A DNA stretch of 64,000 bases from Methylophilus sp. Leaf416 (GTDB lineage Bacteria; Pseudomonadota; Gammaproteobacteria; Burkholderiales; Methylophilaceae): the NCBI RefSeq assembly GCF_001424665.1, contig NZ_LMQS01000001.1, positions 187,225-251,224 on the forward strand, written 5' to 3'. The first letter of the stretch is position 1. Each line of letters starts with the position of its first letter. The translations under genes were made by a program, and so were the position numbers. Of this stretch, positions 28,074 to 32,403 are shown in pieces. The notes below the pieces were generated by a model. It was given only the letters and a program-made list of their open reading frames with translations. It was not told the origin of the DNA and did not search any database.

Positions 28074-29945
28074 TTACAGTGCAAAAACGTTTAGTGCACC
28101 GCCGCCAGGAGCAGCGTTGTACTTGGTCAACTCTTTGTAACCACCAGCAGCACCCAGTGCGTCGGTGTCACTTGTCATACCCAGGTTCATCGCCACGCCA
28201 GCCCAACCACCGATACCTGAAAAGATACCAACGTATTGTTTACCTTTGTTACCGTAGGTGAATGCGTTACCAATCGCACCTGAACCAACCTGGAATTTCC
28301 ACAACTCTTTACCGGATTTGGCATCAACCGCTTTGAACCAACGATCCAGAGTACCGTAGAACACCAAATCAGATGCTGTTGTCAGAGCGCCACTCCATGC
28401 AGAGAATTTCTCTTTGTTGTACCAAACTTTTTTGTTGGTCATTGGATCATAAGCGCCGAAGCCACCCATCACACCGTCAGGACCAGCAAACATAGTCAAA
28501 GTCGCACCCACCCATGGTTGGCCAGCAACGTATTTGGACTCAACTGGCTCGTATGTCATACATACGTGGTTCAGTGGAGAATACATCAAACCGGTTTTTG
28601 GTGAGTAAGCAGCTGGTTGTTGGTCTTTAGTACCCAACGCAGCCGGGCAAATGCCTTTAGCGTTGTAGTCCTGGTGAGTTGAATAACGGCCATCTTTGCT
28701 TGGTACGCCTGTTTTCAGGTCTACGTCATTTGCCCAGTTAACGAATGGATGTACTTTTTCAGCAGCAATCAAAGAACCTGTGTTTGCATTCCATGTGTAA
28801 GCAAAACCGTTGCGGTCATGGTGCCAAGCGTATGTTTTGCCACCTTTGTCGAACAGGATGACTTCGTTTACGCCATCGTAATCCCACTCATCATGTGGTG
28901 TCATTTGCATCGCCCATTTGGCCACGCCAGTGTCCAGATCACGTGCAGTCACAGTCATGGACCATTTGTTGTCGCCTGGACGTACATCCGGGTTCCAAAC
29001 AGATGGGTTACCAGCACCGTAGTAAACCAGGTTTGTTTTTGGATCATACGGCCACCAGCCCCACACGGAACCACCACCATGTTGCCAGCCATCTTTGATC
29101 GCTTGTGGTTTCAACCAGGTACGTGTACCCAATTCTTTTTCGCCACCTTTGATTTGTTCAGCCGTCAAACGTTTGAAAGAACCACCTTCTCTGTTACCGC
29201 CGTTTACGTCTTGGTAAACTGACAGTGCGTTATACAGAGGATTGTCTTTGTTAGTGTTTGCGTCATGCAATGTTTCGCTGTCCGGGCCTGTTGAGTAGGC
29301 TTTCCATGCAGTGGAACCATCTTTGATGTTATAAGCCTGGATAAAGCAACGTACGCCGAATTCAGCACCTGAACAACCGGTCAATACTTTGTCTTTAATC
29401 ACGTGTGGCGCGTTAGTGTTAGTCGCACCTACTTTTGGATCTGTGTTTTTAACTTCCCAGATTTTTTTGCCGTCTTTAGCATCTAAAGCAACCAGCATAC
29501 CGTCATTCTGTTGCAAGAAAATTTTACCGTCGCCGAAACCCAGGCCACGTGTCACGTTATCACAGCACAGTACCGCTTGAACGCTAGGGTCTTGTTTAGG
29601 GAAATAGGACCAAACGATTTTTTGGTTATCATTCAGATCCAGAGCGTAAACGTTGTTTGGGAAAGCAGATACCAGGTACATCATATTGCCCACAACCACT
29701 GGTGAACCTTCGTGACCACGGTTTACACCGGTAGCGAATGTCCAGGCGGCTTTCAGGTTTTTGATGTTGCCCTTGTTAATTTGTGCCAAAGCGCTATAGC
29801 CCTGGTTATTGTGTTGGCCACGTGGATGTGCCCAGTTATTTGGGTCTTTCATCGCGGCTTCTTGGTCAGCAGCTGCAAACGCCATCACTGGCAAGGCAAG
29901 TGCTACGCTAGCAGCAACACCAAAAGCAGTTTTGATTTTCATCAT
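28074..29945 (-). CDS. xoxF: Lanthanide-dependent methanol dehydrogenase XoxF
   Basis: 623 residues. Periplasmic PQQ quinoprotein that oxidises methanol. Signal peptide ends AFAAADQ near 26. The vicinal disulfide is Cys127-Cys128 (VLCCDN). The active site has Asp355 in HDEWDYDGVN, with a second aspartate at 357; this extra Asp coordinates the lanthanide in XoxF enzymes, whereas calcium-type MxaF has alanine there. Other metal ligands match Glu195 (GAEFG) and Asn313 (GAGNPS). Beta-propeller Trp-docking motifs recur (LVALDAKDGKKIW, DAKSGKELWKF). GGAG lies before MM. No xoxG or xoxJ is adjacent. Methylophilaceae XoxF usually fall in clade XoxF4, not testable here. Confidence 0.96.
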   Translation of the reverse strand: MMKIKTAFGVAASVALALPVMAFAAADQEAAMKDPNNWAHPRGQHNNQGYSALAQINKGNIKNLKAAWTFATGVNRGHEGSPVVVGNMMYLVSAFPNNVYALDLNDNQKIVWSYFPKQDPSVQAVLCCDNVTRGLGFGDGKIFLQQNDGMLVALDAKDGKKIWEVKNTDPKVGATNTNAPHVIKDKVLTGCSGAEFGVRCFIQAYNIKDGSTAWKAYSTGPDSETLHDANTNKDNPLYNALSVYQDVNGGNREGGSFKRLTAEQIKGGEKELGTRTWLKPQAIKDGWQHGGGSVWGWWPYDPKTNLVYYGAGNPSVWNPDVRPGDNKWSMTVTARDLDTGVAKWAMQMTPHDEWDYDGVNEVILFDKGGKTYAWHHDRNGFAYTWNANTGSLIAAEKVHPFVNWANDVDLKTGVPSKDGRYSTHQDYNAKGICPAALGTKDQQPAAYSPKTGLMYSPLNHVCMTYEPVESKYVAGQPWVGATLTMFAGPDGVMGGFGAYDPMTNKKVWYNKEKFSAWSGALTTASDLVFYGTLDRWFKAVDAKSGKELWKFQVGSGAIGNAFTYGNKGKQYVGIFSGIGGWAGVAMNLGMTSDTDALGAAGGYKELTKYNAAPGGGALNVFAL

Positions 29946-30308: not shown

Positions 30309-31439
30309 GTGCTCAGACCCTGGCATTACTCTCTGGTATTAGACAAAGACTCCTCTTCGTCCATCCATCAACAACTCATAGGGCATTTCCGCACCATGAT
30401 TGAAGGCGGAGCCTGGCTTGGCGGTAGCGCCCTGCCCAGCTCACGCGACATTGCACAACGCCTGGGGATTAACCGCAAAACAGTTTCCCGTGTGTACGAA
30501 GAGCTTTCAGCCTTAGGCCTGATCTATACGCAGCCTAAGCGCGGTACTTTTGTATCAAGCGCATTACCATCAGCTTTAAATGAATCAGAGACATACCCCC
30601 CTTTGCAGCGCCAGCAGGTAGACCCTTATTCGAACAGCATTCACCACCTGATCCAGAAAACCAGTTTGCACCACATCCGTAGAGCAGCTTTGCACATGCA
30701 CAAGCTGCAAGCGCATGATTACGATGCCACCGGATTGTTTAACCTTAAACATATGCTGGCTAATCTATTGGCGCATGAAAGAAGGTTCCTGGTGTCTCCT
30801 GACCATATCGCCTGCGGAAGCTGGCTAGCGCTGCAATACGCTGTCATCCAAAGTATCAGGCCCGAAGATGGATTGTTGCTGGCGGATCATCATACAAGCG
30901 CGGTGATGATCAAGAGCCTGCAAAAACAAGGTATTAGCGTTATTCAACTGCCGGAAAGTAATGGCAATCAGGCAATAAACTTTACCGAGCAGATCGAAAA
31001 GTATTGTATTAATTATCCCGTAGCGGCGGTCTGGTGTAATAGCTCGACACTCTTTAATCATGAGAGTGATGCAGCCGGCCAAACGCTGCTTATCCAAAAA
31101 TTAGCTGACTACCACTTATTGTTGATTGATGACCAGCGTGGCAGTTTTCCATTAAGCCAGCAAAACCATCCACCCTTAGCCAGCAAATACGCTAAAAGCA
31201 TGATGCTGGGAAGCTTGTACGGCAACTTTTGCGACACTTTTAACTTGTGCTTTGTCGCCAGCAATGAGAACCTTTCCAGCGAGTTTCTGAACGCCTTGAA
31301 TGAGCAACACCAACAATCCTCATTGCTCAATATGCTGGCTCAAAGTGAGTTGATCAAACGCGGAGAATACAAAAAACTGCTGACTGGTATTTATCGCTTC
31401 ATGCAAACCCCTGATGCCAAATTGTTGACACCAGCATAA
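30309..31439 (+). CDS. MocR-type GntR regulator with degenerate aminotransferase domain
   Basis: 376 residues from a GTG at 30309 (AAGGT is about 11 bases upstream). An N-terminal GntR winged helix occupies 14-84 (LPSSRDIAQRLGINRKTVSRVYEEL). The rest resembles a type I aminotransferase, as in MocR regulators, but it is about 100 residues shorter than usual. The segment where the PLP lysine is expected reads MLGSLYGNFCDTFNLCF (299-315), with no lysine. It probably cannot bind PLP covalently. Divergent from xoxF, so a role in methanol or lanthanide regulation is a reasonable guess, not shown. Confidence 0.8.
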   Translation: MLRPWHYSLVLDKDSSSSIHQQLIGHFRTMIEGGAWLGGSALPSSRDIAQRLGINRKTVSRVYEELSALGLIYTQPKRGTFVSSALPSALNESETYPPLQRQQVDPYSNSIHHLIQKTSLHHIRRAALHMHKLQAHDYDATGLFNLKHMLANLLAHERRFLVSPDHIACGSWLALQYAVIQSIRPEDGLLLADHHTSAVMIKSLQKQGISVIQLPESNGNQAINFTEQIEKYCINYPVAAVWCNSSTLFNHESDAAGQTLLIQKLADYHLLLIDDQRGSFPLSQQNHPPLASKYAKSMMLGSLYGNFCDTFNLCFVASNENLSSEFLNALNEQHQQSSLLNMLAQSELIKRGEYKKLLTGIYRFMQTPDAKLLTPA

Positions 31440-31447
31440 GTTATGCA

Positions 31448-31465
31448 TACAACCAAATGGTTGTA
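31448..31465. promoter_or_regulatory. Possible activator-binding dyad upstream of a sigma-54 promoter
   Basis: TACAACCA-AA-TGGTTGTA, perfect 8-base arms, just past the MocR-type stop and about 110-128 bases upstream of the predicted start at 31576. That distance suits an enhancer-binding protein. A second AT-only dyad lies at 31503-31521. Function inferred. Confidence 0.4.
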
Positions 31466-31549
31466 ATCAACCACCTAAAATTCAGGAAAAACTCCCATTG
31501 ACTGAAAAAAACGTTTTTTCAATCATCAGTTTAAATGCACACCTCAAAC

Positions 31550-31565
31550 TGGCATACAAAATGCT
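31550..31565 (+). promoter_or_regulatory. Sigma-54 (-24/-12) promoter
   Basis: TGGCATA-CAAA-ATGCT, with GG at 31551-31552 and GC at 31563-31564, the correct spacing. It predicts a start at about 31576, exactly the first base of the long stem that follows. The -12 half is identical to that of the promoter at 24711. Confidence 0.58.
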
Positions 31566-31575
31566 GGTTACAAGC

Positions 31576-31698
31576 AGGGAGTGAACTATCACTAGGACCG
31601 ATATGGGCAACTGCAAATTTGCCCATATCGGGGTAGACACTCCCTAACTTGCATATTGATCTCATGCAAAAAAGGCACCGCTGCCGCGGTGCCTTTTT
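31576..31698 (+). ncRNA. Candidate sigma-54-dependent structured RNA in the lanthanide locus
   Basis: About 123 nt, no coding frame. Helix 1 nests two perfect stems: outer AGGGAGTG (31576-31583) with CACTCCCT (31638-31645), inner CCGATATGGGCAA (31598-31610) with TTGCCCATATCGG (31619-31631), loop CTGCAAAT. Helix 2 is TTGCAT/ATGCAA (31649-31669). Helix 3 is the terminator ending at 31698. It starts at the position predicted by the sigma-54 promoter. The structure and terminator are seen directly; that it is a free small RNA is inference. I recognise no known RNA family. A regulatory palindrome in DNA is the alternative. Confidence 0.5.
31669..31698. terminator. Bidirectional terminator
   Basis: GGCACCGC (31674-31681), loop TGCC, GCGGTGCC (31686-31693), flanked by A- and T-runs. 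It would stop the candidate RNA on the plus strand and the PepSY gene on the minus strand. Confidence 0.92.
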
Positions 31699-31746: not shown

Positions 31747-32271
31747 TTACTCTTGGCCAATTTGGTAAACTTCATAACTGGTTTCAACGATTTTGCCAGT
31801 CGTTGCGTCTACTTCAACTTTCACTTCTTCGTTGTCAGCTTCAAGAATATCAAACTCGTAGGAAGCTTTACCATCGGGCTCAAGTTCGTATTCTGTTTCT
31901 ACGACCTTGCCTGGATGTGCTGCTAAAGCGGTGGCTTTTGCATCTTCTTCAGATACTTTTGCCAGAGCCTTGAATCTTTCATCATCAGCAGTCACTTCTT
32001 CTTCTACCTCAGTGATTTTGCCAGTTTTGGCATTGCACTCGATATCCCAGGCCTTACCATCGTTAGATTGTACGTCAAACTCATAAACCAGTTGCTTACG
32101 CTCAGACTTGGCTTCCAGTTTAACGATTTTGCCGTCATGCTTGGACAAAGCTGCTTTTACGCATTTACCCAGGCTGTCATAGGCTTTTGGCTTGATAGTT
32201 TCGTGGTCAGCAAACGCCTGACCAGACAATAGACCGCACAGGGCGGCAGTGATAATTGACACTTTTTGCAT
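31747..32271 (-). CDS. Exported PepSY-repeat protein, lanpepsy-like (probable lanthanide binder)
   Basis: 174 residues from the ATG at 32271, chosen for GGAG seven bases upstream; an upstream in-frame start at 32295 is less likely. Signal peptide MQKVSIITAALCGLLSGQAFA. The mature protein is two PepSY-type repeats, each ending DIECNAKTGKI or VEVDATTGKIVE, and about a quarter of residues are Asp or Glu. Lanpepsy of Methylobacillus flagellatus is a periplasmic PepSY protein reported to bind lanthanides. Context next to xoxF supports the same role here: a lanthanide store or carrier. Sequence identity to lanpepsy cannot be measured here. Confidence 0.8.
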   Translation of the reverse strand: MQKVSIITAALCGLLSGQAFADHETIKPKAYDSLGKCVKAALSKHDGKIVKLEAKSERKQLVYEFDVQSNDGKAWDIECNAKTGKITEVEEEVTADDERFKALAKVSEEDAKATALAAHPGKVVETEYELEPDGKASYEFDILEADNEEVKVEVDATTGKIVETSYEVYQIGQE

Positions 32272-32403
32272 TTTTGATCTCCGTGTTAAAGTCATGATGA
32301 GGGTGCGATGCGCAAGCTAGGTACTCTCACACCGCGATTCATAACGCGAAAAGGATATCAAAAACGTAATTAGTTGTTTTAAATATTACATTCTGTTAAC
32401 AAA

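Follow-up and report, generated by a model that had tools for sequence, protein, structure and literature searches.

What does the intergenic segment near xoxF_A encode, and on which gene would its product act? The segment lies in a 64,000-nucleotide stretch of Methylophilus DNA (the window), between a gene for a MocR/GntR-type regulator and a gene for a PepSY-domain protein. An initial annotation had proposed that it harbors an undescribed regulatory RNA, maybe tied to methanol or lanthanide use. We examined the structure, promoter, distribution, and possible targets of this RNA, here called sRNA1.

The RNA gene and its surroundings

According to the initial annotation, the RNA lies between a MocR-type gene divergent from xoxF and a lanpepsy-like gene, and the matches to PF00392, TIGR03075, and PF03413 agreed with this arrangement (Table 1). 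The regulator also resembled the PdxR-like family NF052282 at 94.6 bits, under the family's cut-off of 320. It has 376 aa, and Pfam shows the GntR domain only; the frames of its relatives have about 434 to 524 residues, some of them clipped at the locus end. The aminotransferase half of the gene may be degenerate in this genome. The PepSY gene is convergent to sRNA1.

Table 1. Features of the sRNA1 locus, with positions in the window
Feature	Position	Strand	Remarks
xoxF_A	28074..29945	-	TIGR03075, 607.6 bits; isozyme without match to sRNA1
MocR/GntR-type regulator gene	30309..31439	+	Upstream of sRNA1, divergent from xoxF_A; PF00392, 2e-11
Dyad TACAACCA-AA-TGGTTGTA	31448..31465	.	8-base arms; candidate sigma-54 activator site; 111-128 bases before 31576
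Box AGGAAAAACTCCCAT	31484..31498	+	Common to sRNA2 upstream regions and, inverted, to xoxF_B upstream regions
Sigma-54 (-24/-12) promoter TGGCATACAAAATGCT	31550..31565	+	
sRNA1 (small RNA gene)	31576..31698	+	Ends inferred: start predicted from sigma-54 spacing, end from terminator
Outer stem	31576-31583 with 31638-31645		8 perfect pairs
Bulge ACUAGGA	31591..31597	+	7 nt, 5' side, between middle and inner helices
Inner stem	31598-31610 with 31619-31631		13 perfect pairs
Seed	31645..31663	+	19 nt perfectly complementary to xoxF_B Shine-Dalgarno (SD) and start codon; target G000:C2:344018-344036, outside the window
Second hairpin	31649-31669		Predicted fold; weak, 6 pairs, 9-nt loop AUUGAUCUC
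Intrinsic terminator hairpin	31670..31697	+	12 pairs, from the fold
PepSY-domain gene, lanpepsy-like	31747..32271	-	Predicted start MQKVSIITAALC; PF03413, 2.5e-29 (two stretches); PF13670, 5e-08
PepSY gene SD and start GGAGATCAAAAATGCAAAAAG	32262..32282	-	Second, weaker target; -17.1 kcal/mol here

The predicted minimum free energy of sRNA1 was -63.4 kcal/mol, compared with -30.6 +/- 3.4 for shuffled sequences (z = -9.6, a value to which the terminator adds; 0 of 200 shuffles as good). The elements that had been reported, namely a nested stem of eight outer and 13 inner pairs, a second hairpin, and a terminator, were all located, as were the sigma-54 motif TGGCATA-CAAA-ATGCT and an 8-base-arm dyad upstream of the predicted start. 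The fold additionally contained a 5-pair middle helix and an adjoining 7-nt bulge, both absent from the earlier description. The terminator has a U-rich end and 12 pairs in the 15 rows of alignment A3, one pair being broken in two rows; it could perhaps also serve the convergent PepSY gene on the opposite strand. With its own promoter and intrinsic terminator, and with a next gene that is not on the same strand, sRNA1 is by sequence a stand-alone unit. None of the 4,227 families of Rfam 15 matched the window at the gathering cut-off, and the best subthreshold match between 31400 and 31760 reached 22.8 bits of the 48 needed, on the other strand and over the terminator.

By motif count alone the promoter was not above chance in the window (four matches, with 2.7 expected), and it is credited because it is conserved at a fixed place. 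Of 25 homologous loci, 23 had the form TGGYAY-N6-TGC, and the remaining two had TGGCAC-N6-CGC. A CAACCA..TGGYTG-like dyad (at most one mismatch) was found in 17 of these loci; it preceded the -24 element by 98 to 102 bases at 13 loci and by 123 to 125 bases at four. With a -24/-12 element conserved in place and a candidate activator site upstream, sRNA1 can be classed as a putative sigma-54-dependent gene. A search for the activator by means of the dyad was unspecific, giving 91 genome matches at up to one mismatch and 38 in the control, and we take CAACCA..TGGTTG to be unlike the NtrC consensus. Sigma-54 frequently serves nitrogen control. Passages of PMC5723320 report that in these bacteria the expression of methanol dehydrogenase varies with the nitrogen source, with differences between xoxF copies, and nitrogen source is a candidate signal for sRNA1.

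Homologs, a paralog, and covariation

A BLAST search with sRNA1 over 187 genomes of the family gave near-full-length matches in 15 genomes, all belonging to Methylophilus, the genus of the window; most of the other matches listed were short, with E values near chance. Reading the place beside mocR added G078, G067, and G069, for a total of 18 of the 22 genus genomes. No sRNA1 was found in G070, G071, G076, and G077, genomes that are 80 to 94% complete; G077 was read, and the core was absent. In the alignment upstream of the RNA, conservation was limited to the promoter's TGGCA and TGC and to the upstream repeats, the remainder being variable. An alignment of 18 rows folded poorly, three divergent rows being misaligned, and the covariance model and the pair counts below use the 15 close rows (A3).

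The covariance model detected homologs in two further genera, g19 (G166, G172, and G173; E values of 8e-9 to 6e-8) and g18 (G107, G132, G138, G139, and G140; E values of 2e-4 to 6e-3). These eight matches were accepted since the core was read there, and reading of the weak matches in G045, G123, and G168 found the core absent. Among seven extra-genus neighborhoods read by eye, a MocR-type frame lay beside the RNA in all seven and a PepSY-type frame in six, and xoxF was 2 to 4 kb off on the same contig in six. The fold thus recurs in three genera of the family, largely beside the same genes.

The model also found, with E values of 5e-11 to 3e-5, a second RNA, sRNA2, at 13 loci in 12 genus genomes; in the window's genome it lies about 60 kb from xoxF_B, a second xoxF gene. 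The paralog shares the ACUAGGA bulge with sRNA1, its seed (mostly TGCATATTGATC) is related, and its terminator is similar; no sigma-54 motif was seen in the sRNA2 alignment. G073 carries a third RNA copy (L169, G073:C8:472969-473101), which has a GGAAAAAATTCCCAT box to itself and a seed of reduced length.

Genomes of 84,980 named species were scanned with an exact pattern that is narrow, missing G107, G132, and sRNA2, so that silence elsewhere does not mean absence. The scan returned 18 loci, 17 of which had promoter and core and came from records labeled Methylophilus, Methylotenera, Methylophilaceae, Betaproteobacteria, or Pseudomonadota. L177 and L181, labeled Methylotenera, were the most g18-like of the scan loci. 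L187, labeled Bacillota, was discarded as a chance match, having no TGGYA..TGC and folding differently.

In the 15-row alignment, 96.7% of the cells were standard pairs, and the figure fell to 35 to 49% when partners were slid by one to three columns, although the counted structure came from one of the 15 rows, which favors the real pairing over the slid controls. Four pairs had changed on both sides, a number reached by 1 of 500 shuffles, and the covariation score was reached by none of 500. The same 7-nt bulge was predicted in 32 of 39 single folds that covered both paralogs and three genera; all seven exceptions were g18 or g18-like, and in most of them CUAG of the bulge is base-paired to the opposite strand. 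Three inner-helix positions of the 39 folds showed five or six types of standard pair; these folds display pair variety and are not a test, the sequences having been located by the bulge and each pairing by construction. That way of locating them also accounts for part of the bulge's conservation among the 39; in the BLAST-found alignment, the bulge was invariant in all 16 rows. A lack of compensatory changes in the stems, named in the initial annotation as an observation that would speak against the RNA, did not occur; two-sided changes were found. Together with the conserved promoter, the largely conserved neighborhood, and the absence of an Rfam match, they support the idea of an undescribed regulatory RNA, perhaps with a link to methanol or lanthanide use.

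Complementarity to the xoxF_B start and other sites

BLAST showed that the segment 31645-31663 recurs reversed elsewhere in the genome, where it spans the ribosome-binding site and the start codon of a second methanol dehydrogenase gene, xoxF_B (ggagatcaatATGCAAGTTaac), which is 87% identical to xoxF_A of the window. The sRNA1 tail and this start pair perfectly along 19 nt, at about -29.7 kcal/mol. Within three mismatches, the 19-mer GGAGATCAATATGCAAGTT, 18 bases of which are in the duplex, occurs in the genome only in xoxF_B and the RNA gene. The tail paired with its own xoxF_B at -22.8 to -30.4 kcal/mol in all 18 genus sRNA1 loci, and in each of them none of 300 composition-preserving shuffles of the tail equaled it. 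In the nine genomes where xoxF_A starts were tested, the values were -8.8 to -13.8, versus -25.7 to -30.4 for xoxF_B. As main target, xoxF_A, mxaF, xoxF_C, and a fifth PQQ dehydrogenase were rejected, with values of -8.8, -14.2, -17.5, and -11.2, respectively, versus -29.7 for xoxF_B. Upon co-folding of sRNA1 with xoxF_B, only the seed hairpin opened, and the 5' module and terminator remained.

A relaxed 16-nt search of the genome gave 104 matches at up to three mismatches, compared with 26 for a reversed control, for a motif that resembles any ribosome-binding site; a start codon stood at the right spot in 17 of 30 places examined. After the RNA gene and xoxF_B, the strongest among the scored sites were an 18-codon frame (-27.3 kcal/mol) and a codon inside an RNase PH-like frame (-26.0 kcal/mol), and neither of these near-equal sites resembles a gene start. 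Further scored sites were a frame at -21.0 and the grpE-like (-20.0) and rplI-like (-18.3) starts, named by eye. The site of the 18-codon frame, TGAGATCAAAATGCAG (L226, G000:C5:243901-243916), opens only that frame.

The match to xoxF_B was also present in the paralog. The sRNA2 tail paired with xoxF_B at -21.1 to -28.4 kcal/mol in 11 of 11 loci, two further loci agreed, and none of 300 shuffles was as good in any of the 13. Its pairing with the PepSY start was weaker; two of the 12 loci tested, all from genomes other than the window's, were equaled by 25 and 46 of 300 shuffles.

For sRNA1, pairing of the tail with the PepSY start ranged from -18.0 to -25.7 kcal/mol in the 14 other genomes with the gene adjacent, and at most two of 300 shuffles were as good in any of the 15 genomes. 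The start reads GGAGATCATTATGCAA in 12 of the 15, one mismatch from the seed's ideal, and GGAGATCAAAAATGCAA in the window's genome. The seed of G062 has changed: its 15-nt match to the PepSY start is perfect, and in exchange it has one mismatch to xoxF_B. In G067, G069, and G078, the PepSY gene is not there and the xoxF_B match is kept.

In these same three genomes the xoxF_B leader is GATCAACATG instead of GATCAATATG, the base before the start codon being C and not T, and their RNAs have TGTTGATC instead of TATTGATC, with G and not A at the partner position. The pairing is perfect over 17 nt in G078, with one other mismatch in G067 and one inserted base in G069. The co-change in the G078 clade could go back to one event, and the altered target can still pair with the Methylophilus seed (-22.8 and -25.4). 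Within the genus, G064, G075, G073, and G062 have at least one uncompensated mismatch to xoxF_B.

Beyond the genus, conserved complementarity was found in two of the three g18 genomes tested and in none of the three g19 genomes. The former two, G107 and G132, have the xoxF_B start TTAATATGCAAAT and the RNA sequence ATTTGCATATTA, a perfect match of 12 nt in which, relative to Methylophilus, two positions have changed on both sides; the pairing energies were -18.4 and -19.1 kcal/mol, which none of 300 shuffles attained in either genome. The third, G139, gave a weak fit (-13.0 kcal/mol, equaled by 6 of 300 shuffles). G138 and G140 have RNAs of similar appearance; no xoxF_B start was recovered from either. 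In g19, the tail shows no fit to the xoxF_B start in G166, G172, or G173 (-7.7, -8.8, and -11.2, equaled by 13, 231, and 190 of 300 shuffles), and the xoxF_B target is therefore not universal. At L117, L118, and L119, from three g19 genomes, the promoter, 5' module, and neighbors are kept and the 3' part differs.

A sequence box, GGGAAAAACTCC (at most two mismatches), was found at -89/-90 in 12 of 18 sRNA1 loci, at -46/-47, just upstream, in 10 of 11 sRNA2 loci, and inverted at -123 to -126 in 7 of 15 xoxF_B upstream regions; it was present in none of nine xoxF_A upstream regions. Overall, 29 of 44 regions contained the box, versus 11 of 4,400 shuffled regions, the 44 being orthologs and not independent. 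The form GGGAAAAACTCC(T/C)AT recurs at fixed distances at 31484-31498 of the window, L099, and L083-L092 and, inverted, at xoxF_B. Because the box is common to the upstream regions of both RNAs and xoxF_B, sRNA1, sRNA2, and their target may also answer to one common transcription factor.

Proposed action, alternatives, and known systems

We consider it very likely that sRNA1 is a trans-acting base-pairing sRNA, putatively fired by sigma-54, that lowers the translation of XoxF_B and spares XoxF_A. Starting from what the sequence shows, namely the fold, a conserved promoter, a seed complementary to its target, and co-change of the two, we infer transcription, repression, an activator, and a signal as follows. 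An enhancer-binding protein, presumably at the CAACCA..TGGTTG sites, would enable sigma-54 RNA polymerase to transcribe sRNA1. The 5' module, with its stacked helices and ACUAGGA bulge, would serve as a stable cap or a protein-binding handle, and the 9-nt loop AUUGAUCUC of the weak 3' hairpin would make the first contact with the xoxF_B Shine-Dalgarno sequence. The seed hairpin would then open to give a 19-bp duplex, and since this covers the Shine-Dalgarno sequence and AUG, ribosomes could not start. This seed would also fit the neighboring PepSY gene at its start, in most relatives with a single mismatch, and the PepSY protein would probably also be lowered, to a lesser degree. sRNA2, with its different upstream region, would feed into xoxF_B too. 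With the sigma-54 signal on, XoxF_B would go down and XoxF_A would not, an isozyme choice made after transcription; lanthanide use by XoxF_B is taken from its family.

A more elaborate version, which we regard as unlikely, would make the ACUAGGA bulge a sensor of a ligand, a metal, or a dedicated protein that gates the seed, so that the sigma-54 signal and a second cue choose the XoxF isozyme; if true, it would be a post-transcriptional layer of the lanthanide switch. The bulge also figures in an alternative that seems to us improbable, in which the main role of the RNA is protein binding or titration by the bulge, for instance as a CsrA-type sponge, and pairing with xoxF_B is secondary. The bulge sequence persists in g18 and g19 loci whose seed has a poor fit, or none, to xoxF_B, and its AGGA resembles a CsrA site. 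Within the genus, however, the seed is maintained and changes together with its target. A CsrA sponge as such was rejected for the window's genome (G000), in which no CsrA was found, there being no match to PF02599; 3 of 14 control genomes matched this family.

It is very improbable that the sRNA activates or stabilizes the xoxF_B mRNA or that this mRNA sponges the sRNA. The box common to the sRNA upstream regions and, inverted, to xoxF_B suggests co-expression, but a duplex on the Shine-Dalgarno sequence and AUG occupies the classical repressing position, and little structure that could be released is predicted at the beginning of the xoxF_B mRNA. We give next to no credence to a conserved structured RNA without the proposed target, whose complementarity would be a relic of a duplication of the xoxF leader: the PepSY and xoxF_B starts are alike (GGAGATCA..ATGCAA) and such sequence recurs in the neighborhood, yet two-sided changes occurred in two lineages and the match is maintained in two paralogs at different loci. 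Least credible of all is a cis-acting riboswitch or leader, perhaps lanthanide sensing, for which the strong 5' fold, the conserved bulge, and the adjoining lanthanide-related genes might speak, but which was rejected on account of the terminator after the RNA and the convergent next gene, the paralog moreover sitting elsewhere with the same architecture. The evidence, drawn from comparison of sequences, thus points to trans pairing with the second xoxF mRNA rather than to an ion-sensing riboswitch.

MicF, RyhB, and OxyS are trans-encoded base-pairing sRNAs that mask the Shine-Dalgarno sequence and AUG. Like them, sRNA1 is short and has its own putative promoter and terminator, a seed complementary to a translation start, and more than one predicted target. 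Unlike them, it has a perfect 19-nt seed (in this genome), a larger stacked 5' module with a bulge, and a methanol dehydrogenase as its proposed target. Sigma-54-dependent sRNAs include the Qrr RNAs of Vibrio and NrsZ and CrcZ of Pseudomonas. With these sRNA1 shares a putative sigma-54 promoter with upstream candidate activator sites, and with Qrr it shares paralogous copies, sRNA1 and sRNA2, that would converge on one target; it differs from all of them in having no Rfam match and in the presence of the sigma-54 motif in only one of the two paralogs.

Base pairing of an sRNA at a translation start is thus of a well-known kind; this RNA family, its predicted target, and its putative role in methanol oxidation are, as far as we searched, new. 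No small RNA controlling methanol dehydrogenase in these bacteria was among the matches listed for open PubMed Central full text, and passages of a review on how methylotrophs are regulated (PMC10992012) name none. Those of a methanotroph transcript map (PMC12403871) name two small RNAs, of other kinds, and none for methanol dehydrogenase. In Methylophilaceae, the several xoxF copies per genome follow no single pattern of regulation according to passages of PMC5723320, which do not give the mechanism. The 19-nt perfect match to one xoxF start is a concrete candidate answer to this differing regulation and, if the proposed action is true, would offer a means of adjusting XoxF in methylotrophs used by industry. 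Passages of PMC5723320 and PMC6028718 describe the rare-earth switch of methylotrophs, from mxaF to xoxF or back, as a regulation of gene expression. Like that switch, sRNA1 would choose between methanol dehydrogenases; unlike it, sRNA1 would make the choice at the level of translation, with two XoxF isozymes as the options, adding, if true, translational control to the rare-earth switch.
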